Part shown: piece by piece, positions 884-31,025 of the stretch
How positions within the stretch are numbered: position 1 is the stretch's first letter
Layout of the letters: each line of letters begins with the position of its first letter
Virus record (IMG/VR): IMGVR_UViG_3300042561_000572
Location: 30,156 to 94,155 of that record
Reading direction: 5' to 3' (one strand)
Length of the DNA: 64,000 nt
Source of the DNA: a virus
Translations under genes and position numbers: made by a program
Notes under the pieces: model-generated
Told to the model about the DNA's origin: nothing
Seen by the model: the letters and a program-made list of their open reading frames with translations, nothing else
Database searches by the model: none

Positions 884-1088
884 ATACAACTTTACCTAAT
901 TCATAGTCAAATACTCTCCATCTAAGACTTCTTTTAAATTTAAAAGTATGAAGTCTATTATCATGAGCCATTTCTATAATACTTATGAAGTAATCTAAAT
1001 CATTAGTTATTTTAAAAGTACCTTTATCAATAACCCAATGATTATCTTGTAATGTTTGTATTCTATATCTAATTTTAAACATAAGCAC
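876..1088 (-). CDS. 70-residue hypothetical protein after the giant gene
   Basis: The frame opens with GTG at 1088 or, more plausibly, ATG at 1082, and overlaps the last codons of the giant polymerase gene (ends 1075). It overlaps the following 50-residue gene by 8 nt. The product is rich in aromatic and basic residues and appears mixed alpha/beta. It is probably co-translated with the giant protein. No family recognised. It could be a small partner or chaperone of the giant protein, but that is only inference from position. Confidence 0.6.
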   Translation of the reverse strand: MLMFKIRYRIQTLQDNHWVIDKGTFKITNDLDYFISIIEMAHDNRLHTFKFKRSLRWRVFDYELGKVVYE

Positions 1089-4000
1089 TATCTCCTGAAA
1101 CTAAATAAGTTTCACTTCTACTATCACTACTTAAGTTTTCAAACTCAACATCTGTTGCCCAAACACCAACTACAACTGGTGGTACATCTAACTTATCAGG
1201 CACATCTATAAAGTCACTGGACATTGGATCTATTTCAGCTTCACCTCTAGCAGCTATAGCATCAGATAAGTTATCTTGCATTTGAGCCAACTTATTATTT
1301 AAATTATTATCTCCTTGGTTGAAGTTGCTTTTTAATAAACCAGCACTTTGTTGAATACTACTATCAAGCATATTCATAGCTAAAGCACCAACAAATGATC
1401 CAATAATAGCACTAACACCACTCTCTGCTATTGGCACATTATGTCTAAACAAAGGAGCAACAACATTTCTATTAAACAAGTCTGTTAACTTAGGAGTAAC
1501 ATAAGTACCAACTAGACTAAGTGAAGCTTCAGTTGATGCAGCTTTAGCTAAGTTAGTGGCCCAATCTTCATCAGGATTTCTATAAGCTTTACTTCTAAAG
1601 AGAGCACCAGCAGCATTAGCAGCACCTTTACCATGTGGCATGTTATAACCCATTAAACTTAAAGTACCACCAATAACACCTGCTGCATCCATACCAGCTT
1701 GATCATTAGAAGTACCATATATAGCACCACCAATCATACTAAGTAAAGCAGGACCAACTATATTAAATATACCATCAGCAGCTTTAACTTTTAACTCTTG
1801 TCTAGTAGTACCATCATTACCTCTAGCAACATGTTCAGGTTTAAAGTAATCTTTACCCTCCTTACTTAAAGTACCTAACAATAAGCCATTTTCAGCTAAC
1901 AATTCATCTGCTAATGCTTTAGCCTCTGCTTCATTTTTATTTATATTTTTATGCTGACCTACAATCTGAGCATGTATCTTATTATAAGTAACATCACTTA
2001 TTTCACCAGCTTGATTCATAGCAGCAGCAACTTCACTAATAGCTTGTAATTTAAAGCCTTGTGATGTTTTCTTACTTTGTCTATTAATCAAATCACTAAC
2101 TAATTCATTCTTTCTTTCAACCTTACCATCAATGGTTACTTCATGTTGTATTTCAACATGTTTAAGATGCTTATACATTTCTGCCATTTCTTTAGCATTC
2201 TCCTCATCACCACTAAAGTTAGACATCATTTGTCCCATAGCATCAGCATTAGTCAATTTAGGATCATTAACAGCTTTAAACAGTCTGCCCATAACAGAAG
2301 CACCTTCCATGCTAAGTTTACCTTGAGCCATTAACCTATAAGCAGCATTAAACAAATCACCACCTAATAAGCTAGTACCAACCTCTCTAACACTAGAACT
2401 TGTAATGTTTCTTTGCATGTCCTTACTAGCTTTATTTAGATGAACAAATCTATCTAAACCACTACCATAATCACCCATAAATGTCTTAGTTTGAGTGATA
2501 CTAGCATGATGACTAAGTACTAATAGAGAAGCAGTTGATAAGCCACCACTACTTTGTCTAACCTCATTAAGTTTAGCCATATTATCATCAGTCATAGCCA
2601 TTCCCATATGTTCATAAAGCATAGTACCAAAAGCACCATTAGAGTTAGTAATCATCTCTGCTGAGAACCTGTTAACTTGTTCTACTACAGCCTTATCTCT
2701 ATGTTGTTCTGATACATAACCAACACTATAACCACTGGCTCTTGTAGAAAATCCAACTCCTCTACTATTAATACCATCTATAGCATTATATAAACCTTCA
2801 ACTGCTTTAACAGCATCTGCTTTATTCCCCATTGCTAGCTCAGCAAGAGTTAAACTAACACCTTTACTATCACTACCCTTACCTAAAAAGCCATGTAATC
2901 CTTCACTAATAGTCTTTTCCAAAGCTCTATTACTACTAGCTTTATCATCAATCTTTAACTTACCATCCTTACCAATTTCTAATGAACCAAAGTTCTTTTC
3001 AAAGTTAAACATAGTAGTAATACTTCTAAGACTACTACTAACTTTAAACTTAATTAAAGAATCTTCATTTACATCAGACCCCATTAAAGCCATTCCAATA
3101 TCTCTTTGATCTCCAGTTATGTTATAGTCTCCAATGCTGCCATATCTACCTTCTCCATCTTTCCTTTCACCAGTAGAACCAGCAGCATGAATCATCTTAT
3201 TTAAATCCATTAGACCCTTCATACCAGCACCAGGACCAATTTTAGAAGCCATATCATTAACTAAACTTTGTCTTTTACTCTCATCAGCAGTAGTATATTC
3301 TTCTGACATCTTAATAAGTTCAGCCATAACAGAACTAGAATCACCCTTTAGTTTTATACTATCTCTAAGCATCTGTTGAACTGCTTTATTCCAACCTTGC
3401 AATTGTTGTGCTTTATCATATGAAGCTTGTAAGTTAGCCATAAATCTAGTGCCTTCATCTGATGGCATAACAACAGAGTTACTAGCATTATTAACTGGCC
3501 CATGTTGTCCAGTCATTCTGTTCATCTTCTCAGCAATCTGTGGACTATCACCTTCTAATATGTGATACAAACTAACAATAGGAGAATCAGCAACAAAAGT
3601 GCCAAGTAAAGTGTTATAAGTCTTACCTAACACATCACTACCAGCCTCACCTAATGTTTTAGTTAATACATCATATGTTGATTCACCCATACCAATACCT
3701 AAGCCAGCATTAATCTTACTGTATAAAACATTACTAGCTTTACTAGTTGCATCTAACTTACTAAATAGAGTTGTAAAATAAGCCTCTTTATTAACCTCAC
3801 CTTCAAAGTTATGTAAAGTATTACTGCTTTGTTTTAACTCATCCCAAGTAAGTCTCATACTGTTTGTTAAAGCTTCTTGTAACTCTTGTTGCATATCAGT
3901 ATCTTGCAGTTGAGTTGAGTTTAAAGTCATACCAATAGCAGTAAAGAACTGATTCTTATCAGAACCTGTTTCTATGCTTTTTATCATATCATCTAAAGTA

Positions 4001-7000
4001 TTCTTATCAAAGGTTAAACCAACAGAATGTTTACTGCCCAAAGAAGCATTTAACAAGTCCTCAACTCTAGTATTCATTTCACTATTAACACCTTGCATAC
4101 CACCATATAAGCCTTTACCTTGATCTAACATAGCAGCCATAGAACTAACATTAATAGTACCCTGACTTCTAAAACCACCTTCATTACTACCTCTAAAGAA
4201 TCTACTATCAATACCCATATAAGAGGCCACATCTTTTGCCATCTTACTTTGTTTATCAGGAGCATTCATATCCTTTTGCAATGACTTTAAAGCCATAGCA
4301 TCTTCAAATAATTTAGCTTCTTCATTGGCTAATGTCTTCTCTAATTTACTAAGAGCTTCTGTGTCTGATATAGGACCAACAAAAGCTTTCATTGAACTAA
4401 TTTCTTTCTTTTTATGTTCAATTACAAATCTTCTATCATCAATTGTATTAATCTTTTCAGTAACCTTATGTAGCAACGTCATATAGTTATCACCATCAAA
4501 GTCACCTAAGTTACTAGTTAAGAATGACAAACCACTAAAGATTGAAATACTCTTACTTCTATCAACATCAAACCTAACAATATTGTCATCTATTGCTAAG
4601 TTATCAATCATTTTATTGAATTGATCAACACCTCTAATAGCCATTAAAGTAGCAAGATGAGATTCAGTTGAACCATATGGTGCTGATCTCCAGCTTTGAT
4701 TTTGCATGTTATCAAGTTCACTCATACTATTATGAATGTAGCCTAATTCTTGTAATGAATAGTGTAAGAACTTAGTACTTAAAGTGCCTCCTTGATCCTT
4801 ATAAGCAGCCACTTGTTCTTTAATGTTAGTCATATCATTAATCATATAACCAACACTCTTTCTATTAGCAGCTACTATAAAGTGTTCTTGTTCTGACTTA
4901 GCATTCTTAGTAGAAGTAGGAGCAAAGCCCTCCATAAAGTTCTCTAAGTTCTTTATTCTATTGTCAATGTATTCAAGTGTAATCTGTCTAGCAGCTTCAA
5001 AGTTACCACCTGTTTTTGGATCAGCAGTGTCATTAATTAGATCTGTAATACTTTGATGAGTTTGCTTATACACAGTATGTTTACCTCTCATAGCACCCTC
5101 TAATTCCTTGCTATAATGATTAACAAGATCAAGGCCCATGCTATATCTATTCTTCATAGTACTATTATGAATAAAGTCTCTAATCTCATGATTCTTACCA
5201 AGATATATAGCATCTTGGTAACCTCTTTCAGACATCCAATCATTAACAGTACCTATTAAACCTTTATATTCTTCTCTCTTCTTAGGATTAAGACTGTTTT
5301 CAGCTAACTTTGTATCAGCTTTCAACTTAGCAAATTGCAGATTAGCTAATACATAACTAGCAACATATGCCTTATCATAAGCACCAGTTACATCTAAGTT
5401 TTTCTTAACAGTATTAAATGAATTTTGAGCCTTTTCAACAGCAGCATCTAAATCATTTATATCAGTAGTCTTACCAGTTTGTACTTGATTAAGTAAATTA
5501 TGAGCACCACCAATAACTTCAACACCATTCTGCAATTTTAATGCTGCCATAGTTGAAATACCTCTAACAAGCATTTGCTTTTGATAATCTAATACAGTAC
5601 CTAATGACTGATTAAAATCTTGTAGTTGTTTATTACTTTGATAATTCTTAAACTTAGTAGACATCTCACTACCAAGTGTTGTATATGTTAAATGTGCAGC
5701 AGCAGTAACCTCAAATAGTTTCTTTCTAAGACTAGCAATACCTTCAGGTGCTCCATACTTCTCATTAACAAATTGGGGCATAACATTCATGTTAGCAGCT
5801 AAACTTAAGTTAGGAATACCAGTACTAACATAACCTTCAAACTCAGTACCATGACCTGCAACTGCTTTTTGCATTAAAGTATCAGAACTAGCTTCTGATA
5901 TAGCTTGTAATAACTCATCACCAAGATAACCTAATCTAGCAATCATATCAGTCTCTTCAGGGCTTAAATTAACATTGAAGGTGGCACTATTCTTTTGTGC
6001 TGCTCTAGCTTTAGCAACTTTAATCATTACATCATTTTCAGCAGTACCTGGTACAAAATAACTTTGCATATTTAATGTTTTACCAACAATATCACTAACA
6101 AAGTCACCAAAAGATGAACCAACTTGATTTAACAAATCAGCACCAGGCATAAATATATATGTGTTTTGAGTATTACTAAATACAGTATTAACATCTCCAG
6201 TCATTTGATCTACAAGTGGTCCACCAACTACTTTTGGCATTAATATGTTATAAGTCCTATTACCAGTATCTTGTAACATTTGTAGCTTAGGTTGAGTTAT
6301 ATCTGTACCCATACCTTTACTTTGTTCTAAGTTATAAGTTATGGCAGACTTTCTTAAAGCTTCAATTATATGTTGACCAACACGCCTTAATTGACCAGCA
6401 TAATCAGTAAGCTTAGCAGTAGGATCACTATTATGTTTATCCCTATTTAACCCATCAACATATGTTGCTTCAGCAAGAGTTAAATCACCGTTATTATAGT
6501 AATCTTCTACTTTACTAACATCAAAGTTCTTTTTAATAGATGGTTTATAAATAGTTCTATATTCTTTTATTAACTCACTACTATTCTCATTAGCATTATA
6601 ATAAACTCCTAAGAAGTCCCTACCAAAGAAGCCACTCATAGTTACTGGATCTAATGCTTGAATTGCTTGTATACTCTTTAAATACTCTGCACTATCAGCC
6701 ATACCAACACTAATAAGTCCAATCTCTTGAGCAGCAACAACAGTACCTAACACATACGCTAAGTTACCCTTATTACCAGTTCTAGTAAACTGTTTAGATT
6801 GAGCTTCTAATGGTGCTAACAAGTGTTGCATTTCAGTCTTAGCTCTTAAGTTCTTACCAAGAGGATCTTTACTAGCAGAAGGTGATATAGACAATGATAA
6901 TTGCACTGCATAGTTTTGTTGCAAGTATATACCCATTTGATTAGCAAGTTGTTCTTTCTCCTCATTAGTCATATTAAAAGCATTATCACTACCACCTAAA

Positions 7001-10000
7001 GCTGCTGCAATTTCCAACAATGGATCATTTAAAACTACACCACTGTATGCATCATAATTGCCTGTAACTGCATTAGGTGTAGCAGCTCTTGTTAAAGCTC
7101 CTATTTCTGATAGTGGACTTGTCTTTAAAGGACCAATAAAAGAATCATCATTAAACTTACCAGTAGTACCATCATTTTGTCTTACCTTCATTTTAAGCAT
7201 CCAATCAGTAACCATACTAATGTCACCTCTTTGATTCTTAAGCTGACCAAACATATCAATAGCAGTTAACATAGCAGAGACACCTCTAGTATATAAGTCA
7301 CTACTATTAATTACATAACCATCACCACTTCTACTACCAACAGTGTTAACATAACCTTGTAATAAGCCTGTTAAATCTCCACTATCAGTTAATATGGCAT
7401 CTCTAATAGATCCTACAAGTTCCTTATTATTCATAATGAATTGTGGAATACTACCAAAGATATTATCCTTTGATCTAGTAGCTTTACCAGTAAGTACATT
7501 CTGCATTTCAGCCATTCTAATAAAGGTGCCAAACTCACCTTTAATAGCAGCCTTCTTATAAGCTTTAACATATTGATCATTCAACATTAAAGCATCACCT
7601 GGTTTATTCCTTTCATATGAACCATCAGCTATAATGTCTAAACCAAACTGACTAATCAAAGCTGCTGCTAACATTCTATTAGTCTGTTTAACAAGAGTAT
7701 TAGCAAGTTTAGTTCTAACTCCATCAGGACCAGTTACATCTTTAGTAAACAACATAGAAGCATGATCCATAAAGAAGCCACTCTTTAAGTTGTTAGGATT
7801 AATCAAGCCATAAACATCAGATACTTGATTCTTTAAAATACTAGCACTACTTATACCTGCTTCAACTGTTTTAATAGCCCCCATATCATCTTTAAAAGTA
7901 GATTCATAGCCTAATGATTTCATAAAACTACTAAATACACCCTCAAATTGACTACCTTTTAAAGCAGCACCAACACCTTTAAATAAAAGACCAGCAGCAG
8001 TACCTTCATGTCTTCTACCAGAACCAGGTTGTAATATTGGCAAAGCACTTACTTGGTATTTTATTTCATTAGTGCCTGGACTACCACCTTCAACTCTACC
8101 AGCAGTAAGAATAAGATGAACTGAATCTTCACCAGGTCTATTACTAATTGACTTTTGTTTAACAGATGCTACAGGTTTACCAAATAAACTGAAGTTTTCA
8201 ATCTGTCCAATTAAATAATCAGCACTACCAGTACCTCCAACATAAGTTACATTATCTCCACCATCTGCTCTAATTTGAACAACCTTATTAACACTTCTAT
8301 CATATACAAAAGTATCACCTTCATTAATAACAAGGCCATTCTTTTGCAACATATCACCACTAAAAGTTACTTCACCAACATGTGTTCTAGCATCTAACAT
8401 AGAAGCCTTAATACCAGTATTAGTAACAGTTGGCATACCAGCATAATGTTGTGTTCTAAATTTAGGATTAGTATAGAAGTGATCACTATAACCACCATTA
8501 AGTTGTAATAATACAAACTGTTGTTTATCTCTTCTACCTCCAACAACTGAACCAACACTATTAGCAACACTACTATAACTAATCATCTTCATTCTAAACA
8601 TGTTGTTAAGTATTTGATTAGTATCTTCTCTCTCTGTCTCACTTAAGTTTAAATCTTTAAACTTATCAAATAATTCTTTTCTCTGCGCTAATACAAAGTT
8701 ATAAGCACTTTCATTTAGCACTGTTCTAACATCAGTATCAAACATAGAACCTAAGTTTACTTCTTCTGCTGTTAGATAATTATGTATAAACTTCTTAGCT
8801 TTATCATCAGTTAATAAAGATGTTAATTGAGCTATATTATCTGCAATGCCCTTTCTTTGACCTGCATTATATTCTTTTAAACTACCCTTTTCTAATATAG
8901 TCTTAGAAGCCTCTTCAGATACTTCATACATTAATCTACTACCAAGAGCATTCTTAATTCTTTGGTTAATTTGTGCTGGTTTACTAGGATCAAGATTAAA
9001 TAACATACCTCTTTGATTACCTTTAACATTTAACAATGTCATAATCTCATCAACTTCACTGTCTTTAAAGTCACCACTATTAACAAGTTTATCCTTACTA
9101 ATAAGAACACCAATACCAGTTCCTTCAAGGATATCAATACTATTCCTATCAGTTGGAAACTTATTTCTAACACCAAATGATTCTAGTTGATAACCTTTCT
9201 TATTCTGAGTAGAAACACCTTCAGCAACACCACCTAAATAAAACCTTTCATTACCTTCATAATCAGTACCAAAACCACTATAAACACTAACATCTCTAGC
9301 AAATGTTCTAGCATATTGTAATGTTTGTAGAAGAGGGTTCTTACTAACATCAGCAATGTTTAGTAAACTCATAGCTCTTTCATTACCAGCATCTAAACCA
9401 TAATTAATATACTTACTAGCAGGAACACCTGCCGCATAACTAATAGCCTGGTGAGCTTGTAAATAAGGATCAAATATAGTTTTAGATAACTCTGTCATCT
9501 GACTATTTAAATCTCTTTCAGCATTATATTTACTATTAACTCTAAGAACATCTAAGGTTAAATCTTGATAACCTTCTTGACCTAATAGTTGACCAATAGC
9601 ATGTATAGCTGTAAAAACATCATCACCACTTTTAGCATTTCTAATATTTTGTATTTGATCTGTTAACTTAATGCCAAACTTTGTACCTTCAACATTAACA
9701 TTAACATTTAACCTGTTATAAACATCTACACCAGCTAACTGTCTAGTAGTATCTAAATAACTAATACCTTCAGCATTAAATCTACTTTCCAATGCATTAG
9801 CAAGGTCTTTATATCCACCCCTATCAAACAAGTTATTAGATCTACCCCTATCAAACAAGTTATTAGAATAAGCTAATCCATCTGTATTTATGCCAACCTT
9901 ATTATCAGCTAACATGTATCTAGTATCACCCATCAAAGAAATAGCAAAGTCTAATGCTAAACCTCTTTTAGTATCAGCATCAACACCTATTAACTTACTA

Positions 10001-13000
10001 GCAGGATTACTAATAGCTTGTTTATAAGCCATCTCACCAATCATAGTAGCAAAGATACTAGTAGTATTATCAATACTAGACATCTCAGCAGATTGACCAT
10101 GTTCTAAAACACCAGGTCTATCCCCAAACTTCCAACTAATCTTTCCACCAGTATTATTAGTAAAGTTACTGTTATATATTAACTTACCTTCCTTTTGAAA
10201 GAACACAGGACCAGGTTGATTAGCAGTACCTTGTAACATACCAAGAGTATAAGTAAGCCTACTAGTATTAGTGTTTAAACCTAATAACTTACCAGGCATA
10301 ATAGCAACTTCTAACATAAGAGGAGTGCCAAATCTATCATACTTTCTAGTAATAGACATAGCATCCCCTAACCCTTTACTCATCTCCCTTAAAGTACTTT
10401 CTAACTTTAAAAGATCACCAGTATTAGATTGTCTAGCCCAGTATGGTAAACCTTCAATGGAGGGTAACAAACCATTATCTAACCTATTACCATAGTTAAG
10501 TTGAGCATAAGACATAGTTACAGCCTTATTATTATCTTTTAACTCATACATTTCTTCTTCTGCTAATAAAGAATATTCATTACTAAAGCCTAAGTTTAAA
10601 GCCTCAATGTTATCTCTAAAGTCTTGGTCATAGCCAGTATTACTTTCCTTAGCAGCATCAATGAATAACTTTCTATTAACATAAACAGCACCCATTTCAT
10701 CACTAACATATGGATCATTACCTCCAACACCAAGATACTTATTATCAGGTCTAATATCAACACCTAATGAGTTCATACTAAAGTTAGAAGAGTTAGCAGC
10801 AGTACCAGCTATTTGCTGAGTATATTTAACATATGTACTACCATCTTTTCTTGTTGCTGATTCATATCTATAAGCACTAAAAGACTTACTATGTTGTCTA
10901 GGAACATCAGCACCAGCCATATTACCACTAGCAATAGCAAGCATTTGTAATGCAGTTAAGTTCTTACCATCAGTAATATCTAATTGAGCATTAATAAGTT
11001 CAACCTTTCTATTTAGTGATTGATTACTCTCTGTTACAGCATTAACAAAGCCACTAATAGAGCCACTAAATTCATTATGAAACCTAGCACCAAACCTATC
11101 ATTTAAATAATTCCAAGTAGGTTCTATGACCTGTTTAGTAAAGTTATTAGTATCAACTACAACCTTACTAATACCCATTGCTATCAAACTAAAGTTCTTT
11201 CTTTGTATGTCTCTATACAATTCATATCTAACATCTTGTCTTGATCTAAACTGACCACTTCCAAGAGTATTGGAACTAAATTTACCCATTTCACCAATCT
11301 CTTGACTGGTAGCATCATTAAATCTATTAGCTCTATTATTAGGATCACTACCATTAACATCTAAATGATTAACATGTAATAAGTATGCTTGATCAAGCAC
11401 CATAGTCATACCTAAATCACCAGTATATTTACCCTTTAATTCGTCTAAACTACTATTCATTTCTCTACCACTTTCAGTGTGTAAATAGTCAACAGTAGCC
11501 TTCAATGTATACATAATATCAGTTGCAAACTTAATATTAGATTGACTACTTATAGTTGTTATTTGTTGTTTTTGAGCAGCAACAACTTGTTCATACATAA
11601 GAGCAGATACAGTCTTCTTATATTTATTAACCTTATTATCATTTAACTTTTGAGGATCAAACTTACCTAATAACAAATTAAGTTGTGCTAACCCAGAGAA
11701 GTCTTTAAAAGATGTCCAATTATTTAATAGTTCTGGTAACCTGTTAATATATTCTTGTCTCTTTTTAATTAAATCCTTATTACTATGAAACATGCCTAAC
11801 ATTTCATAGTTGGAGCCAGCTTTAAATATAGAATCACCAACAGGACTAGTTAAGTTAATAGAGCCTAACACAGCAACCTGATCTGTTATATAAACCTTTC
11901 TATGATGAGCAGGGCCAGCAAGCTTAATGTTAAACACACCAGGAACCCCATCTTTACCATTAACAATCTCTTCTGCTTCTTGTCTAGTTTTTTTCTTGCT
12001 ATTAACAAGTTCATTGATAATAGTTTCTTTTAACTTCTCCATCTTTGCAACTTCAAGTATATTAGGCCCAAAGATAGCAGCACTAGTACCTTCATCACCT
12101 GGAATAGGAGAACCAACAATCATATTAACTTTAAAGCCATAGTTCTCATTACCTATGATTTCTCTATAGATCTTACTAACAACAACATCACTAATAGCTC
12201 TATTTTGATATTGGAAAGTATCAATTGTAATGCTTTCTTTAGCAGATTCAAACATAGAAACAAATGGTAATATACCAGGTCTAGTTTGATACTTAACATC
12301 ATCAATCACTTTAGCTGCTTTTTGTTTATAACTATTGTTAATACTAGTATCAATAGCTTTAATGTTTCTTCTATTTATACTAACACCACCCTTAGTTAAC
12401 TCATTAACATAAGACTTACTTCTAACAAAGTCTAAGTCAGTAATAGTCTTACCAGCTTTACTTCTACTACTATTAAAAGTACCTTCATTAATTGCTCTAA
12501 GCTCATCTGCTGAGTTACCATCAACAGGAACAAGACCACTACCAAATAGATCAGCATTAACTAATCTCTCTAATGTCTCTTGTCCTCTAGCTTCCATATC
12601 TCTAATATTAGAACTAGATTGAACACGACTAAAAGCATTAGCATACTGATAGCTTTGATCTAAGTAATAATTATCTTTAGCTTTAGTAGGATCTTCAATG
12701 TATAAACCTTTTTTAGCTAAAACATTACCAAATATATTTTCAAATACCACTTGACTAGCATAAGCTTTAGTCTCAGTAGGATCAATTCTATAAGCTTCAC
12801 CAACTAAGAACTTAAGACTCTTTCTACTATCTAATAAGCTATTAGAAACATTACTATCAAACTCAGTAAACAGTCTAGTAGTAACAGTTTGACTAAGACC
12901 TAATACAAACTTATTAGAGAATGCTTCTCTTTTACCAGTAGTAGTAACATGTTTAGGATCAAACATACCACCTGATATATCACTAGTCATACCAATAGCA

Positions 13001-13182
13001 TTTTGCCAATCACTATTAGTTGAGCCTAACTCATTAGTAAAGACTTCACTGTTATACAAACCATAACCAACAGAAGTTGCAAGAGCACTTCTATTACCTT
13101 GTTCTATAAAACCATGAAGACTACTAACAGATTGTCTTCTATGTTCTAAATGATATTCAGTGTTTGAGAAATAACTTGACAT
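1075..13182 (-). CDS. Giant single-chain DPBB-type RNA polymerase with N-terminal PLD-like domain, probable virion protein
   Basis: The 4035-residue product carries motifs of multisubunit-type RNA polymerases in their normal order. KQFTRTGNKG at 2130-2139 matches the beta-subunit KxxxRxGNKG with both catalytic-barrel lysines eight residues apart. DFDGD at 2894-2898 is the beta' Mg-binding triad, preceded by a KSISI...N strand pattern as in beta'. AGMKGLM at 3319-3325 matches beta' AGMRGLM next to the bridge-helix region. Residues about 305-460 form a phospholipase-D/nuclease-like domain with HRK...D...GSIN (H427, K429, D434, S441, N443); one residue is missing between D and GS compared with the usual spacing, and only one HKD copy is seen. 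Hydrophobic stretches at 3804-3823 and 3922-3939 suggest membrane contact. By analogy with giant RNAPs of crAss-like phages, I infer a virion-packaged polymerase injected to transcribe early genes. It could also serve as tape measure, because no other tape measure is evident. A role in the virion is inference. Confidence 0.82.
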   Translation of the reverse strand: MSSYFSNTEYHLEHRRQSVSSLHGFIEQGNRSALATSVGYGLYNSEVFTNELGSTNSDWQNAIGMTSDISGGMFDPKHVTTTGKREAFSNKFVLGLSQTVTTRLFTEFDSNVSNSLLDSRKSLKFLVGEAYRIDPTETKAYASQVVFENIFGNVLAKKGLYIEDPTKAKDNYYLDQSYQYANAFSRVQSSSNIRDMEARGQETLERLVNADLFGSGLVPVDGNSADELRAINEGTFNSSRSKAGKTITDLDFVRSKSYVNELTKGGVSINRRNIKAIDTSINNSYKQKAAKVIDDVKYQTRPGILPFVSMFESAKESITIDTFQYQNRAISDVVVSKIYREIIGNENYGFKVNMIVGSPIPGDEGTSAAIFGPNILEVAKMEKLKETIINELVNSKKKTRQEAEEIVNGKDGVPGVFNIKLAGPAHHRKVYITDQVAVLGSINLTSPVGDSIFKAGSNYEMLGMFHSNKDLIKKRQEYINRLPELLNNWTSFKDFSGLAQLNLLLGKFDPQKLNDNKVNKYKKTVSALMYEQVVAAQKQQITTISSQSNIKFATDIMYTLKATVDYLHTESGREMNSSLDELKGKYTGDLGMTMVLDQAYLLHVNHLDVNGSDPNNRANRFNDATSQEIGEMGKFSSNTLGSGQFRSRQDVRYELYRDIQRKNFSLIAMGISKVVVDTNNFTKQVIEPTWNYLNDRFGARFHNEFSGSISGFVNAVTESNQSLNRKVELINAQLDITDGKNLTALQMLAIASGNMAGADVPRQHSKSFSAYRYESATRKDGSTYVKYTQQIAGTAANSSNFSMNSLGVDIRPDNKYLGVGGNDPYVSDEMGAVYVNRKLFIDAAKESNTGYDQDFRDNIEALNLGFSNEYSLLAEEEMYELKDNNKAVTMSYAQLNYGNRLDNGLLPSIEGLPYWARQSNTGDLLKLESTLREMSKGLGDAMSITRKYDRFGTPLMLEVAIMPGKLLGLNTNTSRLTYTLGMLQGTANQPGPVFFQKEGKLIYNSNFTNNTGGKISWKFGDRPGVLEHGQSAEMSSIDNTTSIFATMIGEMAYKQAISNPASKLIGVDADTKRGLALDFAISLMGDTRYMLADNKVGINTDGLAYSNNLFDRGRSNNLFDRGGYKDLANALESRFNAEGISYLDTTRQLAGVDVYNRLNVNVNVEGTKFGIKLTDQIQNIRNAKSGDDVFTAIHAIGQLLGQEGYQDLTLDVLRVNSKYNAERDLNSQMTELSKTIFDPYLQAHQAISYAAGVPASKYINYGLDAGNERAMSLLNIADVSKNPLLQTLQYARTFARDVSVYSGFGTDYEGNERFYLGGVAEGVSTQNKKGYQLESFGVRNKFPTDRNSIDILEGTGIGVLISKDKLVNSGDFKDSEVDEIMTLLNVKGNQRGMLFNLDPSKPAQINQRIKNALGSRLMYEVSEEASKTILEKGSLKEYNAGQRKGIADNIAQLTSLLTDDKAKKFIHNYLTAEEVNLGSMFDTDVRTVLNESAYNFVLAQRKELFDKFKDLNLSETEREDTNQILNNMFRMKMISYSSVANSVGSVVGGRRDKQQFVLLQLNGGYSDHFYTNPKFRTQHYAGMPTVTNTGIKASMLDARTHVGEVTFSGDMLQKNGLVINEGDTFVYDRSVNKVVQIRADGGDNVTYVGGTGSADYLIGQIENFSLFGKPVASVKQKSISNRPGEDSVHLILTAGRVEGGSPGTNEIKYQVSALPILQPGSGRRHEGTAAGLLFKGVGAALKGSQFEGVFSSFMKSLGYESTFKDDMGAIKTVEAGISSASILKNQVSDVYGLINPNNLKSGFFMDHASMLFTKDVTGPDGVRTKLANTLVKQTNRMLAAALISQFGLDIIADGSYERNKPGDALMLNDQYVKAYKKAAIKGEFGTFIRMAEMQNVLTGKATRSKDNIFGSIPQFIMNNKELVGSIRDAILTDSGDLTGLLQGYVNTVGSRSGDGYVINSSDLYTRGVSAMLTAIDMFGQLKNQRGDISMVTDWMLKMKVRQNDGTTGKFNDDSFIGPLKTSPLSEIGALTRAATPNAVTGNYDAYSGVVLNDPLLEIAAALGGSDNAFNMTNEEKEQLANQMGIYLQQNYAVQLSLSISPSASKDPLGKNLRAKTEMQHLLAPLEAQSKQFTRTGNKGNLAYVLGTVVAAQEIGLISVGMADSAEYLKSIQAIQALDPVTMSGFFGRDFLGVYYNANENSSELIKEYRTIYKPSIKKNFDVSKVEDYYNNGDLTLAEATYVDGLNRDKHNSDPTAKLTDYAGQLRRVGQHIIEALRKSAITYNLEQSKGMGTDITQPKLQMLQDTGNRTYNILMPKVVGGPLVDQMTGDVNTVFSNTQNTYIFMPGADLLNQVGSSFGDFVSDIVGKTLNMQSYFVPGTAENDVMIKVAKARAAQKNSATFNVNLSPEETDMIARLGYLGDELLQAISEASSDTLMQKAVAGHGTEFEGYVSTGIPNLSLAANMNVMPQFVNEKYGAPEGIASLRKKLFEVTAAAHLTYTTLGSEMSTKFKNYQSNKQLQDFNQSLGTVLDYQKQMLVRGISTMAALKLQNGVEVIGGAHNLLNQVQTGKTTDINDLDAAVEKAQNSFNTVKKNLDVTGAYDKAYVASYVLANLQFAKLKADTKLAENSLNPKKREEYKGLIGTVNDWMSERGYQDAIYLGKNHEIRDFIHNSTMKNRYSMGLDLVNHYSKELEGAMRGKHTVYKQTHQSITDLINDTADPKTGGNFEAARQITLEYIDNRIKNLENFMEGFAPTSTKNAKSEQEHFIVAANRKSVGYMINDMTNIKEQVAAYKDQGGTLSTKFLHYSLQELGYIHNSMSELDNMQNQSWRSAPYGSTESHLATLMAIRGVDQFNKMIDNLAIDDNIVRFDVDRSKSISIFSGLSFLTSNLGDFDGDNYMTLLHKVTEKINTIDDRRFVIEHKKKEISSMKAFVGPISDTEALSKLEKTLANEEAKLFEDAMALKSLQKDMNAPDKQSKMAKDVASYMGIDSRFFRGSNEGGFRSQGTINVSSMAAMLDQGKGLYGGMQGVNSEMNTRVEDLLNASLGSKHSVGLTFDKNTLDDMIKSIETGSDKNQFFTAIGMTLNSTQLQDTDMQQELQEALTNSMRLTWDELKQSSNTLHNFEGEVNKEAYFTTLFSKLDATSKASNVLYSKINAGLGIGMGESTYDVLTKTLGEAGSDVLGKTYNTLLGTFVADSPIVSLYHILEGDSPQIAEKMNRMTGQHGPVNNASNSVVMPSDEGTRFMANLQASYDKAQQLQGWNKAVQQMLRDSIKLKGDSSSVMAELIKMSEEYTTADESKRQSLVNDMASKIGPGAGMKGLMDLNKMIHAAGSTGERKDGEGRYGSIGDYNITGDQRDIGMALMGSDVNEDSLIKFKVSSSLRSITTMFNFEKNFGSLEIGKDGKLKIDDKASSNRALEKTISEGLHGFLGKGSDSKGVSLTLAELAMGNKADAVKAVEGLYNAIDGINSRGVGFSTRASGYSVGYVSEQHRDKAVVEQVNRFSAEMITNSNGAFGTMLYEHMGMAMTDDNMAKLNEVRQSSGGLSTASLLVLSHHASITQTKTFMGDYGSGLDRFVHLNKASKDMQRNITSSSVREVGTSLLGGDLFNAAYRLMAQGKLSMEGASVMGRLFKAVNDPKLTNADAMGQMMSNFSGDEENAKEMAEMYKHLKHVEIQHEVTIDGKVERKNELVSDLINRQSKKTSQGFKLQAISEVAAAMNQAGEISDVTYNKIHAQIVGQHKNINKNEAEAKALADELLAENGLLLGTLSKEGKDYFKPEHVARGNDGTTRQELKVKAADGIFNIVGPALLSMIGGAIYGTSNDQAGMDAAGVIGGTLSLMGYNMPHGKGAANAAGALFRSKAYRNPDEDWATNLAKAASTEASLSLVGTYVTPKLTDLFNRNVVAPLFRHNVPIAESGVSAIIGSFVGALAMNMLDSSIQQSAGLLKSNFNQGDNNLNNKLAQMQDNLSDAIAARGEAEIDPMSSDFIDVPDKLDVPPVVVGVWATDVEFENLSSDSRSETYLVSGDSAYV
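9817..9867. repeat. 27-nt tandem duplication inside the giant gene
   Basis: A 24-nt identical segment at 9817-9840 recurs at 9844-9867 (period 27 nt), encoding two copies of NNLFDRG. The exact nucleotide identity points to a recent in-frame duplication in the large linker region between the PLD-like and polymerase parts. Confidence 0.85.
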
Positions 13183-14188: not shown

Positions 14189-15658
14189 ATGGCAACAAAT
14201 AATACAAAAGCAACTACATCAACTAAGAAGGAGGAGACTAAACAAAAAGCATCATCTCCTCCTTCTAGTGGAGAAATAAACTTCTCTAAATACAAAACAA
14301 ATCCACCATTACAAGTGTTTGGAGATACTTCTAACAAAGTAAGACCAAACACTTACAAACAATTAGGTAGAGCCACCTCATTTGTAAGTAATGGTGATTC
14401 TTTGTATGTAAATACAGGGCCACATCAATATGCTTTAGCAACATGGGACTATGCTAGAAAGAATGAACCAATAATATCTGATGGTTTAGATAAGATAGTA
14501 TTATCAGTTTTGGCTAAGATAGGTTCCTATAATCATCCTAATCCAGACATAAGAAAGTTTATAAAAGCTAACTTAAAACATAAGATTAGACACTGGATTG
14601 AAAATATAACATATTCTATGTTGTGGTCAGGTAAGTCTGTATCAGAGATAATATGGGAAAAGAAGTGGGATGGTGACACCCCTCAGTTATGGGTAAAAGA
14701 TTTAATAAACTATCATACATCTCAAGTTATATTAAGATTAAATAACTATGGTACTTTAACACATGGAGAACAAGTGTTAAATAGCCAATTTAATACAGGT
14801 GTTTGGGTTCCTAGACCTATTTTAACTGAAGATAAAAAGATGTATAAAGTTGATAGAAACAACACAGGATCACATATAAGACTTGCTAAAGACAAGTTAA
14901 TTATAGCTACATATAAAGATGAAGGTAATAATCCTCATGGCACACCAGCTTTATATGCAGCTATTCAATGGTCTTTATACAAAGCAGCTTTTGTTGATAT
15001 GTATTCTATAGCATTAGACAGATATGGAACACCTTTAATGTATTTTATAGTGCCAGCCACACAAACAACTGAAGACATGGAAGAAGTTGATGGTACTATT
15101 AGAAAAAAGATGTTTAGAGAAGCATTACAAGATGAACTACAAGACTTAAGAAGTGGTTCTGTTTTAATACTTGAAAGACAAGGAAACAAAGATGCACCAG
15201 AACCAAAAGTAGAGTCATTAACAACTGGTAATAACTTTGGAGATTCATTTATAACAGCCATTGATAAGTGTGATCAAAACATGTTACATGCTATGGGAAT
15301 ACCTAACTTACTTATAAAGAATCAAGACTTAGGATTAGGTTCTGGTGGAACAACTGAAAAGCAAGTTGAAATGTTTGAAATGTCTATTGAACAGATAGCT
15401 ATAAAAGTAAGTGAAGTATTAATTGATCAACTTATAAAGACTTTAATAACTTATAACTTTTCACCAAAACTAGTAGATCATGCTGATAACTATGGAGAAT
15501 TTATAATCAAACCAATAAGATATGTTGATTATAAAGTAATGGCAGAAAGTGCAAAGATATTAACAGAAGCAGGAGTTATAGCACCATTAGTAAGTGAAAT
15601 GGATAGAAAATTTATTAGAAATCAACTAGGAATACCTAATGATCATGAGGATGTATAA
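14189..15658 (+). CDS. Portal protein, Mu gp29-like (DUF935 type)
   Basis: The 489-residue protein would form the dodecameric portal through which DNA is packaged and ejected. Its middle contains the GTPALYAAIQWSLYKAA...DRYGTPLMYF block characteristic of the DUF935/Mu gp29 portal family, followed by a helical clamp-like stretch with GGTTEKQVEMFE. The N-terminal 30 residues are Lys/Thr/Ser-rich and disordered. Length is close to the family norm. It lies between the chaperone pair and a small gene whose start overlaps its stop codon (taATGag). Assignment is by motif recognition and by the company of the protease, capsid and terminase genes. Confidence 0.85.
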   Translation: MATNNTKATTSTKKEETKQKASSPPSSGEINFSKYKTNPPLQVFGDTSNKVRPNTYKQLGRATSFVSNGDSLYVNTGPHQYALATWDYARKNEPIISDGLDKIVLSVLAKIGSYNHPNPDIRKFIKANLKHKIRHWIENITYSMLWSGKSVSEIIWEKKWDGDTPQLWVKDLINYHTSQVILRLNNYGTLTHGEQVLNSQFNTGVWVPRPILTEDKKMYKVDRNNTGSHIRLAKDKLIIATYKDEGNNPHGTPALYAAIQWSLYKAAFVDMYSIALDRYGTPLMYFIVPATQTTEDMEEVDGTIRKKMFREALQDELQDLRSGSVLILERQGNKDAPEPKVESLTTGNNFGDSFITAIDKCDQNMLHAMGIPNLLIKNQDLGLGSGGTTEKQVEMFEMSIEQIAIKVSEVLIDQLIKTLITYNFSPKLVDHADNYGEFIIKPIRYVDYKVMAESAKILTEAGVIAPLVSEMDRKFIRNQLGIPNDHEDV

Positions 15659-16273: not shown

Positions 16274-16690
16274 TTAGTTTTTAGCTTTATGTAACAACTT
16301 AACTTGATTCTTTCTGAAGTTCATATACCATTGTGTAAACAATACATGTTTACACGGACTAAACCTATCAGCACAGTCACAAGAGTTACCTTGTATAAAG
16401 TATGTATCACCCTTATCATTGCTAACAACAAAGGTATCTTCTAATGAATTAATAACACAATAACCTTCCATGATTAACATACCAGCAATAGTGTTATTAA
16501 CAATAGTATGAGGATCAGCTATAGGTGCAATCTTATTAGTACTAGAACTACTTCCTAATGCTACATCATAATAAATATAACCATCATTAGGACCTCCATC
16601 TTTTAACACATTAACATTCTTAAAAGCACCACCAATAATTAATTTAGACATGTAATTATTAATAGCTAAATATAGTAAAGGATTCTTCAT
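16274..16690 (-). CDS. Small SWIM zinc-finger protein
   Basis: The 138-residue product ends with a SWIM-type zinc ligand pattern CxCx6CxH: C104, C106, C113 and H115, followed by an aromatic helix VLFTQWYM. SWIM domains bind nucleic acids or proteins and occur in ATPases, transposases and ubiquitin ligases. Here the domain stands almost alone, with an about 95-residue beta-rich N-terminal part. It is the last gene of a minus-strand island and ends at a strong terminator. The start could be M1 or M14. The SWIM call is from the ligand spacing. Its target is unknown. Confidence 0.7.
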   Translation of the reverse strand: MKNPLLYLAINNYMSKLIIGGAFKNVNVLKDGGPNDGYIYYDVALGSSSSTNKIAPIADPHTIVNNTIAGMLIMEGYCVINSLEDTFVVSNDKGDTYFIQGNSCDCADRFSPCKHVLFTQWYMNFRKNQVKLLHKAKN

Positions 16691-16724: not shown

Positions 16725-17261
16725 TTATATAGGAATGTTATCAGCAAAATCTTGATATAGTATTAACATTTTAGGTAAGAAATCTCCATTCATTTGTGTA
16801 TCTTTAATACTAATACCATGTTCAACATTACCAAATACTTCTATTAATGATCTATCAATTCTGTCTCTTATCTTGATAGAGTTTTCATATGCAGTGGAAA
16901 AATAATAATTATAATCTTTAGGTATTTTAGTTTCTTCATTTAAATAATTTAAAGGATAAATCTTTAACCAAAGATCTTCTAATACCAACACCACATCTTG
17001 TTTATCAAAAGTTGTATAATGTTTAAACATTAAACCTTCATAGAGATTATAAGCTATTAGATTTAATATAAAATTATAAACACCCATTAATGTTATGTTA
17101 TTAAAAAGCCCTCTATTATCTTGATTCCTTAAATCATAACTTATCAACTCATAAAAGATACTTTTACTAGATAGACTATCAACAAACTGCTTAGCATTAA
17201 TAGATAGTAAATAATCTTTTTCTTTATCTAATATTCTAATTTGATCATATAGGGATTGCAT
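16725..17261 (-). CDS. Unknown protein, tandem paralogue family member 1
   Basis: This is one of four consecutive minus-strand genes for related proteins of about 180-220 residues. I choose ATG at 17261, because the frame upstream starts only with a TTG at 17267. The start overlaps the end of the preceding paralogue. Shared features are an N-terminal ILDKEKDYLL block, F(V/I)DSLSS.SIFYEL, a hydrophobic core around GVYNFILNLI, and a C-terminal FLPKMLILYQDFADNIPI. They look like compact helical-plus-beta cytoplasmic proteins without membrane segments. No family recognised. Possibilities include anti-defence or structural accessory proteins, but nothing in the sequence decides this. Confidence 0.7.
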   Translation of the reverse strand: MQSLYDQIRILDKEKDYLLSINAKQFVDSLSSKSIFYELISYDLRNQDNRGLFNNITLMGVYNFILNLIAYNLYEGLMFKHYTTFDKQDVVLVLEDLWLKIYPLNYLNEETKIPKDYNYYFSTAYENSIKIRDRIDRSLIEVFGNVEHGISIKDTQMNGDFLPKMLILYQDFADNIPI

Positions 17262-17781
17262 TTGCAAAGTCCTGATATAATATTAACATTTTAGGTAGAA
17301 AGTCATCAGGCATATCTTGAGCCCATATAGTTATAGTATGCTCAAATACTTGTAGTTTTAGATTGCCAACAGATATATTATCAAATAATTTGATGGAGTT
17401 CCTAGACCTATAAGGATAAGCAATTAAGTATTCATATTCTAAAGTTGTTTTATCTGGTTGATAATTTACATTATTAATGTGTAAACCAAAACTTCTTAGA
17501 TCAATTTGTTTATCCTGTTTGTTATAAATAAGATGATGTCTAAAAACTAATGCCTCATATAAATTATGACATATTACATTCAAAATACCATTATAAATAC
17601 CTACCAAAGATATATTATTATAACTTAGTCTAACATCTTTTAGATCCCTCTCAATTGCTAATTTATCAAAGCTTAATAACTCATAAAAGATACTAGCACT
17701 ACTTAAACTGTCAACAAACTGCTGAGCATTAACATTTAATAAGTAATCCTTTTCTTTATCTAATATTTTAATTTGGGCCAT
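17245..17781 (-). CDS. Unknown protein, tandem paralogue family member 2
   Basis: The 178-residue product is the closest relative of its downstream neighbour. It shares KILDKEKDYLL near the start, FVDSLSSASIFYELL, a hydrophobic GIYNGILNVI segment and DFLPKMLILYQDFANAIPI at the end. The middle (about 70-150) diverges freely, which suggests a conserved scaffold with a variable face. The stop codon (TGA) lies inside the next paralogue's start region. It follows member 3 with a 4-nt gap. Function unknown. Confidence 0.7.
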   Translation of the reverse strand: MAQIKILDKEKDYLLNVNAQQFVDSLSSASIFYELLSFDKLAIERDLKDVRLSYNNISLVGIYNGILNVICHNLYEALVFRHHLIYNKQDKQIDLRSFGLHINNVNYQPDKTTLEYEYLIAYPYRSRNSIKLFDNISVGNLKLQVFEHTITIWAQDMPDDFLPKMLILYQDFANAIPI

Positions 17782-17785
17782 TTAT

Positions 17786-27618: not shown

Positions 27619-28276
27619 AGTATGTATCAGTATTGCTAAAGGTATTGCAAGTCATCCTCTTATACTTGCAAATCTAATAGTTAATCCAATAACAAATGAA
27701 CCTGTACCAATTTCAAGTTATAGATTATATGGTGGATTAGAGACATCATCTAACACTTTAACATGTGCTGTATATCCAGCACCTATATCATCATTAACTG
27801 CAAAATCAGCATCATCACAAACAGCATCTATTGTATATAAACCTTACAACTTAGGTAGTGAAACTGATGAAGTAATGTCAATGATACATATTAGTTTTTA
27901 CTTTAATAGTGTTACCTCTGGCTCTCAATCAACCCCTTTAATTCTAGAAAATATGCCTACACAATTACCTATTAGTAATGATGAAATAGTAATAGAAAAT
28001 AGCACAAATATAGAATTATATACAGATGTAGCTTTACATATATTAAGTCAATGTATTGAGTTATTAAGACTAATAATATATGAAATTAAAATAGATGACT
28101 TAAAGACTAAAGTAGAACTACTAAGATCATCATTTATTGGAGGTGAGTGGGAAAAAGATCCATACTTTAAAGAGGTAATGACAGCTTGTTTAGTTACCAC
28201 TTATCTACCAAAAGCAGCAAAAACAAATCCAATAATACAAGATATAAAATATAACATAAACAATGAGAATTCCTGA
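27602..28276 (+). CDS. Probable neck or tail-terminator protein, unassigned
   Basis: The 224-residue product starts inside the end of the preceding gene and runs 14 nt into the tail sheath gene, so all three are likely translationally coupled. It has an N-terminal alpha/beta region, then a strand-rich core and a helical C-terminal half (LYTDVALHILSQCIELLRLI). Genes directly before the sheath are often tail terminators or head-tail connectors. This call is positional only. Confidence 0.5.
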   Translation: MHGVDKVCISIAKGIASHPLILANLIVNPITNEPVPISSYRLYGGLETSSNTLTCAVYPAPISSLTAKSASSQTASIVYKPYNLGSETDEVMSMIHISFYFNSVTSGSQSTPLILENMPTQLPISNDEIVIENSTNIELYTDVALHILSQCIELLRLIIYEIKIDDLKTKVELLRSSFIGGEWEKDPYFKEVMTACLVTTYLPKAAKTNPIIQDIKYNINNENS

Positions 28277-31025
28277 AGTTATTTTTAATGAGACACCCTC
28301 TTTAGGAGCCCCAATAAACACTACTGTTTCTAATAGAGTTGCTATTGTAGGTGAGTTTACAAAAGGACCAACTAATACTATTTTACTATCAGAGTTTAAA
28401 GACTTTGCAAGGATATATGGTTATGATACTGGTACTGCAAACTTATCCTTTCAAGCAGCATATGATCAAGGTGCTAGAGAATTTGGAATTAAAAGAGTAA
28501 TTGGTCAAGCAGTTCCCCCAAAAATTGATTTATTAATTAGTGGTATTGCTACAAAACAAAACAATTTAACAGTTAACTTAAAGTTTGTTGGACAACCAAT
28601 AAGCACAGCAACTAGTTATATTGAAACATTTATTAGTTCTAGTGGTAGTTATACTGGTACAACTGATAAAAGATATTTGTTTAAAGTTACCCAAGGTCCT
28701 ATTACACTTAATGCTACTTATAATCAAGCAACAGCAGCTTCCACTATTACTACATCAATTGCTAATGCAGCTAAAGTAGTAATTGGCTCTAAGATTGCAA
28801 GTGCAGAATCTAATGTATTAACTACCCCAACAACTACCACTATAACAGCAGTTAATCCTCTAACTGGAGTTATTACTTTATCAGCTCCTTTAGTAACAGG
28901 AGTAGCGGGTTATGGTGAGTTTACACTTACTAATAAAGCAACATTAAAGTGGGTTGTATTACCCATTAATCAATACCCATTTGCAACTAATCTACCTACT
29001 GTTAATTGGGGGGATGATAGTGCTGATATTCCTACTTATGTTAATACACTTGGTACAACAGTTACAGGTGCAGTATTAGGAAGTGCTTTAGATCTAACAA
29101 CTGATGCAGGTATTTATAAAGTAATAGCTGAAGGTATATCTATTAGATTTAGTGTAACAGGAGTACCAATTGAAGTATATCCTGGAGAACAATTTACATT
29201 AAGAGTTAACTCTGCTGAGTATTTGATTCCAATTGCAGAAGGAGCAACTTCATCTGATGTTATTAATAACATTCAGGATATTATGGGAGGCATTGCACCT
29301 ATTGGTCTAGTTAAAAGATTAGAAAATGAATTAGGTACATCCTTATTCTTATCAGAAGAAATTGTTAGTCAACCTCTTGAGTTCTTTGACTTAGATGAAC
29401 CTAATAGAGTAACAATTGCAAGTGGTTATAGTTTATGGGTTGATTTAGATGAACCAGATGGACAGGTAGTAGTTACAGGTTCAGCTACAAGTGCATCTAC
29501 ATCACTAACAGTTTCAGATGCAACTAACATTGCAATTGATAGTATTGTATCTGGTACTAGTATTGTTCAAGGCACTACTGTTATTAGTAAAACTGGTAAT
29601 GTATTAACACTATCAGATCCTGTATCAGCAAACATTGTTAGTGGTACTATTACATTCTCTAACTTAAATGGTATTAACTTTAGTAATTATGGATCTCTTA
29701 ATAAGAGTGGATTCTCTGCTACATCTAATAATGCTAGAAATGCATTTGTAACTACTTATTCTTCTGATGGATATCCTTTAGTTAGATTTACTGCTATTAG
29801 TCCTGGTCAATGGGGTAATGGCATCTCATTATCTATCAACAGCATTGGTGCTAGTAGATTTAATGTTGTAATTGAAGATACTAATACTAATACAAATGAT
29901 AAAGAAATTGAATCATTTACAGTTAATCTATTAACGGATGTAGCTGCTGATGGCACAATTAACTCAATTGCATCTTCATATGTTAGAGCTGATTATATTC
30001 CAGTATCAGTTGGTAGTAATCAATTTCCTGCTCAAATAGTAAATAGAACTCCTCAAAGATTAGCACCTGCTAATCCTTTTATAACTACAGTAACAGACAT
30101 TAGACATATTAGTTATGTAGGTAATAACAAGTTATCTAACATCTTCTTAAAGAGAGGTTATGATGGCCCAGTTCCAACTGAAACTGATTACATTAATGCT
30201 GTTAATTCACTCTCACAAGAAAGAGTTAACTTTATTGTAGTAGCTAATGAATTGGGAGCTAGAACAGCAGTAAGACAAGCACAATTATCAGTTGCTGGTA
30301 ATAGTGGTGAACTAGAGGGTAGAAAGATTGCAATCCTAACATCTACTAGAAACTTAACAGCAGCAAGAGCTAGATTAGAAACAGTTGGTATTAACACTGA
30401 AAGAGGTGTTTATGTTGCAGGTTGGGCTACATATAGTGGTGGTATTGGAGCTAGTAGATTCTCTATTCCTTTAAGTGTATTTTATGCTGGTAAGTTAGGT
30501 TATATATCAGAGAACCTTAGTCCTAATGCTAGAACAAGTGCTGGTTCTATTCAAGGAATCATTGAAACTGATCTAGATCAATACAAATCTATTAGTTCTA
30601 AACAACAATTTATAGATACTAAAGTTGACATGATTTCAATTGATCCTGCATTATCTGGTTACTTTGTAGTACAAGGTAGAACACTAACTGATATTACTGG
30701 TAAAGATAGAATTAACTTAGTTAGAATTAATGACAAGATTAGAAGAGATCTATTCTTTAACCTACAAAGTTATAAAGGTGAAACCAATTCTAAAGTAGTT
30801 AGAACACAGATTGCATCTGCTATATCTGCTTATATGAGTACTCTTGCTAGAAGTGGTTATATTACTAGTTATAACCAACCAGTCATTGATGAAACAAATA
30901 ATCCATCTAGTGCATATTACACAGGTACATTAAACATATCTTTAAGTTATAGTCCCATATATCCTATAGATGCAATAGTGATTACTTTAACCAGAGATGT
31001 GTCTGGTAATGTTTCAGTAGCTTAA
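28263..31025 (+). CDS. Contractile tail sheath protein
   Basis: At 920 residues this is a large sheath protein. The N-terminus (PEVIFNETPSLGAPINTTVSNRVAIVGE...FKDFARIYG) and the C-terminal 280 residues (GRTLTDITGKDRINLVRINDKIRRDLFFNLQ and the final TLNISLSYSPIYPIDAIVITLTRD) match sheath families whose terminal strands link neighbouring subunits. The middle (about 90-600) is expanded by beta-rich insert domains. Two of them, around 150-215 and 400-460, share a similar Thr/Ser-rich pattern ending ITLSAPL/LTLSDPV and may be duplicated decorations on the tail surface. The tube gene follows 31 nt later. Confidence 0.88.
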   Translation: MRIPEVIFNETPSLGAPINTTVSNRVAIVGEFTKGPTNTILLSEFKDFARIYGYDTGTANLSFQAAYDQGAREFGIKRVIGQAVPPKIDLLISGIATKQNNLTVNLKFVGQPISTATSYIETFISSSGSYTGTTDKRYLFKVTQGPITLNATYNQATAASTITTSIANAAKVVIGSKIASAESNVLTTPTTTTITAVNPLTGVITLSAPLVTGVAGYGEFTLTNKATLKWVVLPINQYPFATNLPTVNWGDDSADIPTYVNTLGTTVTGAVLGSALDLTTDAGIYKVIAEGISIRFSVTGVPIEVYPGEQFTLRVNSAEYLIPIAEGATSSDVINNIQDIMGGIAPIGLVKRLENELGTSLFLSEEIVSQPLEFFDLDEPNRVTIASGYSLWVDLDEPDGQVVVTGSATSASTSLTVSDATNIAIDSIVSGTSIVQGTTVISKTGNVLTLSDPVSANIVSGTITFSNLNGINFSNYGSLNKSGFSATSNNARNAFVTTYSSDGYPLVRFTAISPGQWGNGISLSINSIGASRFNVVIEDTNTNTNDKEIESFTVNLLTDVAADGTINSIASSYVRADYIPVSVGSNQFPAQIVNRTPQRLAPANPFITTVTDIRHISYVGNNKLSNIFLKRGYDGPVPTETDYINAVNSLSQERVNFIVVANELGARTAVRQAQLSVAGNSGELEGRKIAILTSTRNLTAARARLETVGINTERGVYVAGWATYSGGIGASRFSIPLSVFYAGKLGYISENLSPNARTSAGSIQGIIETDLDQYKSISSKQQFIDTKVDMISIDPALSGYFVVQGRTLTDITGKDRINLVRINDKIRRDLFFNLQSYKGETNSKVVRTQIASAISAYMSTLARSGYITSYNQPVIDETNNPSSAYYTGTLNISLSYSPIYPIDAIVITLTRDVSGNVSVA

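Follow-up and report, generated by a model that had tools for sequence, protein, structure and literature searches.

Among the giant or single-chain RNA polymerases (RNAPs) described in phages, the virion RNAP of N4 is a giant packaged polymerase of the T7 fold. The virion RNAP of the crAss-like phage phi14:2, gp66 (2180 amino acids), is a single chain encoded beside virion genes. In the Thermus phage P23-45, gp96 joins an RNAP to a giant virion protein; a lone DFDGD led to its discovery, as sequence similarity could not be detected (PMC10770324). The subject of this paper is a protein of 4035 amino acids encoded in a 64,000-nucleotide stretch of a virus genome (bases 30156-94155 of the 94,155-base IMG/VR record IMGVR_UViG_3300042561_000572; this stretch is called the window below). 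The protein is a homologue of gp080 of the phage Ma-LMM01, and it is read here as a probable single-chain RNAP with an N-terminal PLD-type domain.

For toxic Microcystis blooms, the model phages are Ma-LMM01 and its relatives. The genome of MaMV-DH01 has been described as having no RNA polymerase and depending on host transcription (PMC9927357). In the transcriptome study of Ma-LMM01, the host enzyme accounts for all three expression classes, and how three temporal classes arise from sigma-70-like promoters alone was left open (PMC5780444).

Like gp96, the giant protein of the window is probably of virion type, and DFDGD is its sole recognisable sign of an RNAP (PMC10770324). The RNAP of gp96 stands at the N-terminus of a 5002-residue tape measure with a metallopeptidase, whereas the RNAP-like part of the giant is central and the PLD-type domain N-terminal; the giant, unlike gp96, is probably not a tape measure. 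No significant match was obtained when the two sequences were compared directly. A single chain, a DxDxD element after an RxP element and a place beside virion genes are common to the giant and gp66, but gp66 carries DFDID and no PLD domain has been noted in it; the giant profile found the correct site in gp66 without significance (p=0.16-0.34). With N4 only the idea of a giant packaged polymerase is shared, and a T7/N4-type identity of the giant is ruled out, there being no match to the T7-type RNAP family. SPbeta YonO is likewise a single-chain relative of multi-subunit RNAP, but much smaller (PMC5467207). Ma-LMM01 (gp080) and MaMV-DC encode full-length homologues that share both the PLD and the DxDGD elements and likewise precede the portal gene. 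P23-45 also has a second, smaller two-barrel RNAP, the non-virion gp64, to be compared with gp064 of Ma-LMM01 (PMC10770324), and this phage is the nearest functional model for the giant and gp064 together. To our knowledge, three features are new: the PLD partner, the cyanophage lineage, and an RNAP-like part in central position.

The giant protein family and its candidate polymerase core

The giant is encoded by one uninterrupted ATG-to-stop frame, as the initial annotation had it; the strand, which was unstated there, is minus (13182..1075), and on the plus strand stop codons occur throughout.

1075..13182, minus strand: giant open reading frame, 4035 amino acids, homologue of Ma-LMM01 gp080 (3562 amino acids); phrog_31006, E=2.7e-48, and family alignment

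Phrog_31006, to which no function is assigned, is the only PHROGs match of the protein. Its relatives by tblastn include gp080, counterparts in MaMV-DC, MaMV-DH01 and others, and a protein of Microcoleus phage My-WqHQDG; gp080 and the MaMV-DC counterpart are annotated as hypothetical. Scans of IMG/VR gave a diverse set, so that 14 further members stand beside the window protein, and the alignment of all 15 comprises chains of 3.4-4.8 thousand residues as recovered; the proteins of the family are about 3,600-4,800 residues long. Most are 20-25% identical to the window protein, and one close relative, L005, is about 60% identical. An additional scan yielded no lineage new to the set, and no relatives were found in GTDB genomes. 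In another member (L031, contig IMGVR_UViG_3300040801_003693), one stop at 10819-10823 lies between two open stretches of the frame, which may reflect an assembly error, a pseudogene or read-through. In both Ma-LMM01 and MaMV-DC the gene is found at the same place, on the minus strand and divergent from the portal and head genes.

The initial annotation had based the RNAP identity on three motifs following each other in the order known from the beta and beta' chains. All three are present at the residues given for them, but the family alignment reduces the argument to one real motif, DFDGD.

6766..6795, minus strand: KQFTRTGNKG, residues 2130-2139, no family motif (family alignment)
4489..4503, minus strand: DFDGD, residues 2894-2898, candidate Mg2+-binding triad (D, D, G, D invariant in 14/14)
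3208..3228, minus strand: AGMKGLM, residues 3319-3325, inside a GPGxG(L/M)KxLM block (family alignment)

The pattern KxxxRxGNKG exists only in the window protein and L005; FADNKSLDKM, FEETGSIASL, FSTGGDMSKM and FKRDGSVDSM stand at this site in other members, and K2130 and K2138 are not conserved. AGMKGLM is literal in the window protein only, within a loosely conserved GPGxG(L/M)KxLM that is seen in most members and is lost in LMM01 (SITPLFKL). DxDGD, by comparison, occupies the aligned site in all 14 of the 15 members that reach it (L036 ends before it), and its second residue is mostly F, with Y or W in single members. In shuffles of the giant protein, D.DGD arose in 7.5%, K...R.GNKG in 0.05% and AGM[KR]GLM in 0/2000. 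A lone DFDGD is therefore weak evidence, and it gains meaning because it is conserved among proteins of such low identity. EF-hand-type calcium loops require G at the sixth position (DxDxDG); a loop of this type is ruled out, since the sixth position in the family is N, P, Q, S, T or M and never G.

Around this motif, several conserved blocks and modelled regions make up the candidate core.

8935..8973, minus strand: block QIxQRxKNxxGxR, invariant, residues 1404-1416, N-terminal to the candidate beta-type barrel (family alignment)
7963..8520, minus strand: candidate beta-type double-psi barrel (DPBB-B), residues 1555-1740 (AlphaFold model, Foldseek, invariants)
7759..7797, minus strand: conserved block NPxNLKSxxxxHG, residues 1796-1808 (family alignment)
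4438..4698, minus strand: candidate core of the beta'-type barrel (DPBB-A), residues 2829-2915, RSxPxG then TSNLGDFDGD (profile alignments)
3556..3651, minus strand: block AGGDxLGKTYNTLxG, invariant, residues 3178-3209, possible bridge helix (family alignment)
3340..3381, minus strand: block QQxLRDSIKxKG, invariant, residues 3268-3281, possible trigger-loop element (family alignment)

The template-free AlphaFold model of residues 1195-2140 displays a beta-rich domain at about 1556-1740, and R1724 and K1735 in this candidate barrel are invariant in the family. In a Foldseek search with this model, the best of 350,542 PDB chains was the second-largest RNAP subunit of vaccinia (8p0j_B, E=0.13, probability 0.57), and six more beta/RPB2 chains (Pol I, Mycobacterium, African swine fever virus) were among the top 50. 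Foldseek of the equally weak model of residues 2270-3345, by contrast, listed no RNAP chain among its 50 matches. If a beta-like barrel is present, the model would place it at 1550-1740, some 400-580 residues before the KQFTRTGNKG site. In the putative beta' part, R2832, P2835 and G2837 are invariant upstream of NLGDFDGD, and the profile of residues 2820-2930 lands on 449-488 of bacterial RpoC (p=0.0064; reversed RpoC 0.11). For the element R2832-x-x-P2835-x-G2837, the best-scoring site in the expected interval of each of three comparison proteins is that protein's RxP element, namely FRNPVMG in P23-45 gp96 (p=0.046), YRIPNQG in phi14:2 gp66 (0.17) and NRAPTLH in RpoC (0.33), and these interval p-values are jointly unconvincing. 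After the DxDGD region, the two invariant helical blocks stand in the order expected for bridge helix and trigger loop, with no significant match of either to RpoC. Additionally, likenesses can be seen by eye between GGGRRVEG..KGV and beta GDKMAGRHGNKGV, between NPxNLKSxxxxHG and beta NPxGVPSRMN..H, and between AGGDxLGKTYNT and the bridge helix; all are statistically unconfirmed.

The second DxDGD protein and the PLD-type domain

Within the 30 kb that precede the window on the same contig, a further unannotated DxDGD protein is encoded.

G000:C1:14200-18840 (L236:701-5341), minus strand: second DxDGD protein, 1546 amino acids, phrog_30979 (function not assigned), homologue of Ma-LMM01 gp064

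This protein carries FRIPM...ANEGDTDGDG, and gp064 itself (1673 amino acids) carries RTPM...NPLLWQAANEGDADGDQ. A 3410-residue Microcoleus-phage protein is also a homologue, and related proteins are found in 6 of the 13 other contigs bearing the giant. DxDGD together with R1311, P1313, W1341 and N1345 is invariant in the seven aligned members of the gp064 family. The DFDGD region of the giant aligns in register with the gp064 profile (p=0.00043), and this site is the best in the entire 4035-column giant profile (p=0.018). The gp064 profile also aligns with P23-45 gp96 at 710-789 (p=0.0025; reversed gp96 0.39), even with DxDGD masked (710-745, p=0.0024), and with RpoC at 447-469 (p=0.0095). The gp064 protein is likely a two-barrel RNAP that is not packaged. 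It is the best support for the giant being an RNAP, though it lies outside the original finding. In Ma-LMM01, gp064 adjoins gp054-gp063, the published early-gene cluster. Between gp063, an early gene, and gp064, six and a half annotated 42-bp repeats are present (NC_008562.1 43271-43551, L234), which could be a control region for gp064.

The N-terminal part of the giant contains the only region with a significant family match.

10693..12330, minus strand: bilobed domain of PLD type with two HKD half-sites, residues 285-830 (PF13091 and invariant columns)
11854..11904, minus strand: HKD half-site 1, residues 427-443, HxKx4Dx5GSxN (family alignment)
10783..10893, minus strand: HKD half-site 2, residues 764-800, HxK...GSSN (family alignment)

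PF13091 matches the corresponding segment of the window protein (E=8.5e-7, 29.3 bits against a cut-off of 27) and falls just under the cut-off with 25 bits on the whole chain; 9 of 13 giant-family members are matched, at best with 4.1e-8. At half-site 1, where an HKD motif had been placed before, H427, K429 and N443 are invariant and D434 is replaced by N or E in some members. At half-site 2, which had been overlooked, H764, K766, S798 and N800 are invariant and the D position is not conserved. The PLD-like domain of the initial annotation is borne out by the Pfam match and the two invariant half-sites, on stronger evidence than was first claimed. Comparison with the PDB gave weak matches to the virion nicking-joining enzyme and the PLD4 exonuclease (E=0.05-0.2), a hint that the domain is a nuclease. 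The statement that no fusion of this kind had been described holds for one of its two parts: the LMM01 homologue already bears the UniProt name 'PLD phosphodiesterase domain-containing protein [Microcystis phage LMM01]', but no paper calling a gp080-family protein an RNAP was found among the open-access papers searched.

Interpretation of the giant protein and rival explanations

Taken together, these findings suggest that the giant is probably a single-chain, DNA-dependent two-barrel RNAP with an N-terminal PLD-type domain, packaged in the virion and ejected from it. Its identity as an RNAP, taken alone, is likely; packaging, once that identity is granted, is in our judgement also likely. Four lines point toward an RNAP, each weak and each independent or partly independent: the RpoC alignment, the beta-rich model, the RxP element and gp064. 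The presence of two double-psi barrels is supported, not proven, and the same holds for the single-polypeptide RNAP of the initial annotation, which now stands on other evidence than the three motifs. On the best reading, the giants form a lineage of their own among the single-chain two-barrel RNAPs of phages, and its founding family spans the Ma-LMM01-like and related phages.

Several results weigh against this interpretation. None of the Foldseek matches to beta/RPB2 chains is significant (E >0.1), and position-specific scans of the conserved beta-like blocks miss the RpoB counterparts K1065/K1073. In Pfam and PDB sequence-profile searches with the giant members and the genome, no RNAP profile reaches significance. 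The profile-alignment p-values are pairwise and uncorrected. When DFDGD is masked, the RpoC match of residues 2820-2930 disappears, so that this alignment rests on DFDGD and its flank; the alignment with gp064 stays in register under the same masking and is no longer significant. The AlphaFold model around DFDGD contains no barrel and is mostly helical, at a low confidence (predicted local distance difference test, pLDDT, <35) that does not amount to a refutation; the segment probably failed to fold because the alignment has 13 rows and about 350 helical residues are inserted in the putative barrel.

In the mechanism proposed, the beta-type barrel (about 1550-1740) would meet a beta'-type barrel made of 2440-2490 and 2829-2930, divided by the long helical insertion, and the active site would lie between them. 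D2894, D2896 and D2898 would hold the catalytic magnesium, and the bridge helix and trigger loop may be formed by the blocks at 3178-3209 and 3268-3281. The giant would be synthesised late, enter the virion and leave it together with the genome, after which it could transcribe the first genes, presumably from promoters, and the PLD domain may cut nucleic acid or lipid at entry or takeover. A more tentative extension gives the Ma-LMM01-like phages two RNAPs, an injected PLD-RNAP of the gp080 family firing the early genes and then gp064 later, in parallel with P23-45 and phiKZ-type phages; we put it forward as a possibility with somewhat more against it than for it.

One alternative, which we consider rather unlikely, accepts a true two-barrel RNAP but not a packaged one, synthesised during infection and working in the cell, with gp064 or host RNAP serving the first genes. 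The size of the giant, its position beside the portal and head genes and its hydrophobic C-terminus fit a virion protein instead.

1375..1905, minus strand: C-terminal region, residues 3760-3936, two Gly/Ala-rich hydrophobic stretches (hydropathy scan)

These two stretches recur in most full-length members of the family by the same scan, and together with the place by the portal gene they favour a virion protein. Moreover, gp064, beside the early genes gp054-gp063, looks the better candidate for a non-virion enzyme.

It is unlikely that the giant is a virion or ejection protein in which PLD is the sole enzymatic part and DxDGD a structural or metal-binding loop of a helical protein. Such a protein would agree with PLD being the sole part with a significant family match, with the mostly helical model of the DFDGD segment and with an RNAP likeness there that depends on DFDGD itself. 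Against it stand the exclusion of an EF-hand-type loop by the sixth position, the independent resemblance of the distant beta-rich region to RNAP beta chains, and the in-register match to gp064, which in turn matches gp96 without its DxDGD.

A role of the giant as tail tape measure like P23-45 gp96, whether or not it also has RNAP activity, is very improbable, since chain length and gene place do not fit. The gp96 precedent and the character of the giant as a giant tail-associated protein with hydrophobic stretches speak for it. A tape measure extends about 0.15 nm per residue. The 3562 residues of gp080 would therefore give a tail of >500 nm, against the 260 nm reported for the LMM01-like phage MaMV-DH01 (PMC9927357). 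The giant gene lies before the portal on the other strand and not after the sheath, and the tail cluster holds better-sized candidates (LMM01 gp098, 1177 amino acids; window 40289-43459, 1056 amino acids). QDE-1 and PolD have the two-barrel fold too (PMC10770324), but that the giant is an RNA-dependent RNA polymerase like the former or a DNA polymerase like the latter is the least probable of all, as the tailed phage has a DNA genome and the in-register alignments are best with DNA-dependent RNAPs (RpoC, gp96).

Neighbouring genes and meaning for Microcystis phages

The plus-strand neighbours of the giant gene encode portal, head maturation protease, major head protein, tail sheath, baseplate wedge and terminase. 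PHROGs matches to sheath, baseplate, portal and major head protein bear out the contractile-tailed phage that had been supposed.

14189..15658, plus strand: portal protein, heading the divergent cluster of structural genes (phrog_113, E=2.7e-30)
28263..31025, plus strand: tail sheath of a contractile tail (phrog_30392, E=4.5e-86)

Apart from these genes, several others deserve mention. At 60993-63182 (plus strand) a mini-intein (PF14890, E=2.8e-6, below cut-off) interrupts the Walker A motif of the large terminase subunit (GRG|CPVE...HN|SSKSS), and a GIY-YIG/NUMOD3 homing endonuclease lies at 22444-23301 (plus strand), immediately 3' of the major head protein gene. A lysine/ornithine monooxygenase-like flavoprotein (PF13434, E=6.7e-12) is located at 49036-50094 (plus strand) amid the tail gene cluster, and the reason for this place is not obvious. 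On the minus strand, three tandem paralogues of about 180 amino acids occupy 16725-18337; one of them has a weak match, below the cut-off, to the DNA-mimic family of T4 Arn (PF22134, E=5e-4), and they are possible anti-restriction proteins. A Ferritin/Dps-like protein is encoded at 19055-19564 (minus strand; PF00210, E=5.6e-7), and at 16274-16690 (minus strand) there is a small protein without Pfam match, whose CxC...CxH pattern resembles a SWIM zinc finger by eye.

If the giant is an RNAP as proposed, the few single-chain relatives of cellular RNAP would gain a deep lineage whose domain partner, the two-HKD PLD, is new, and a second phage lineage would possess a giant polymerase-bearing virion protein. 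If both gp080 and gp064 are RNAPs, the published dependence of such phages on host RNAP (PMC9927357) would be wrong, and the question of how they transcribe their genes would become directly testable in cultured phage.

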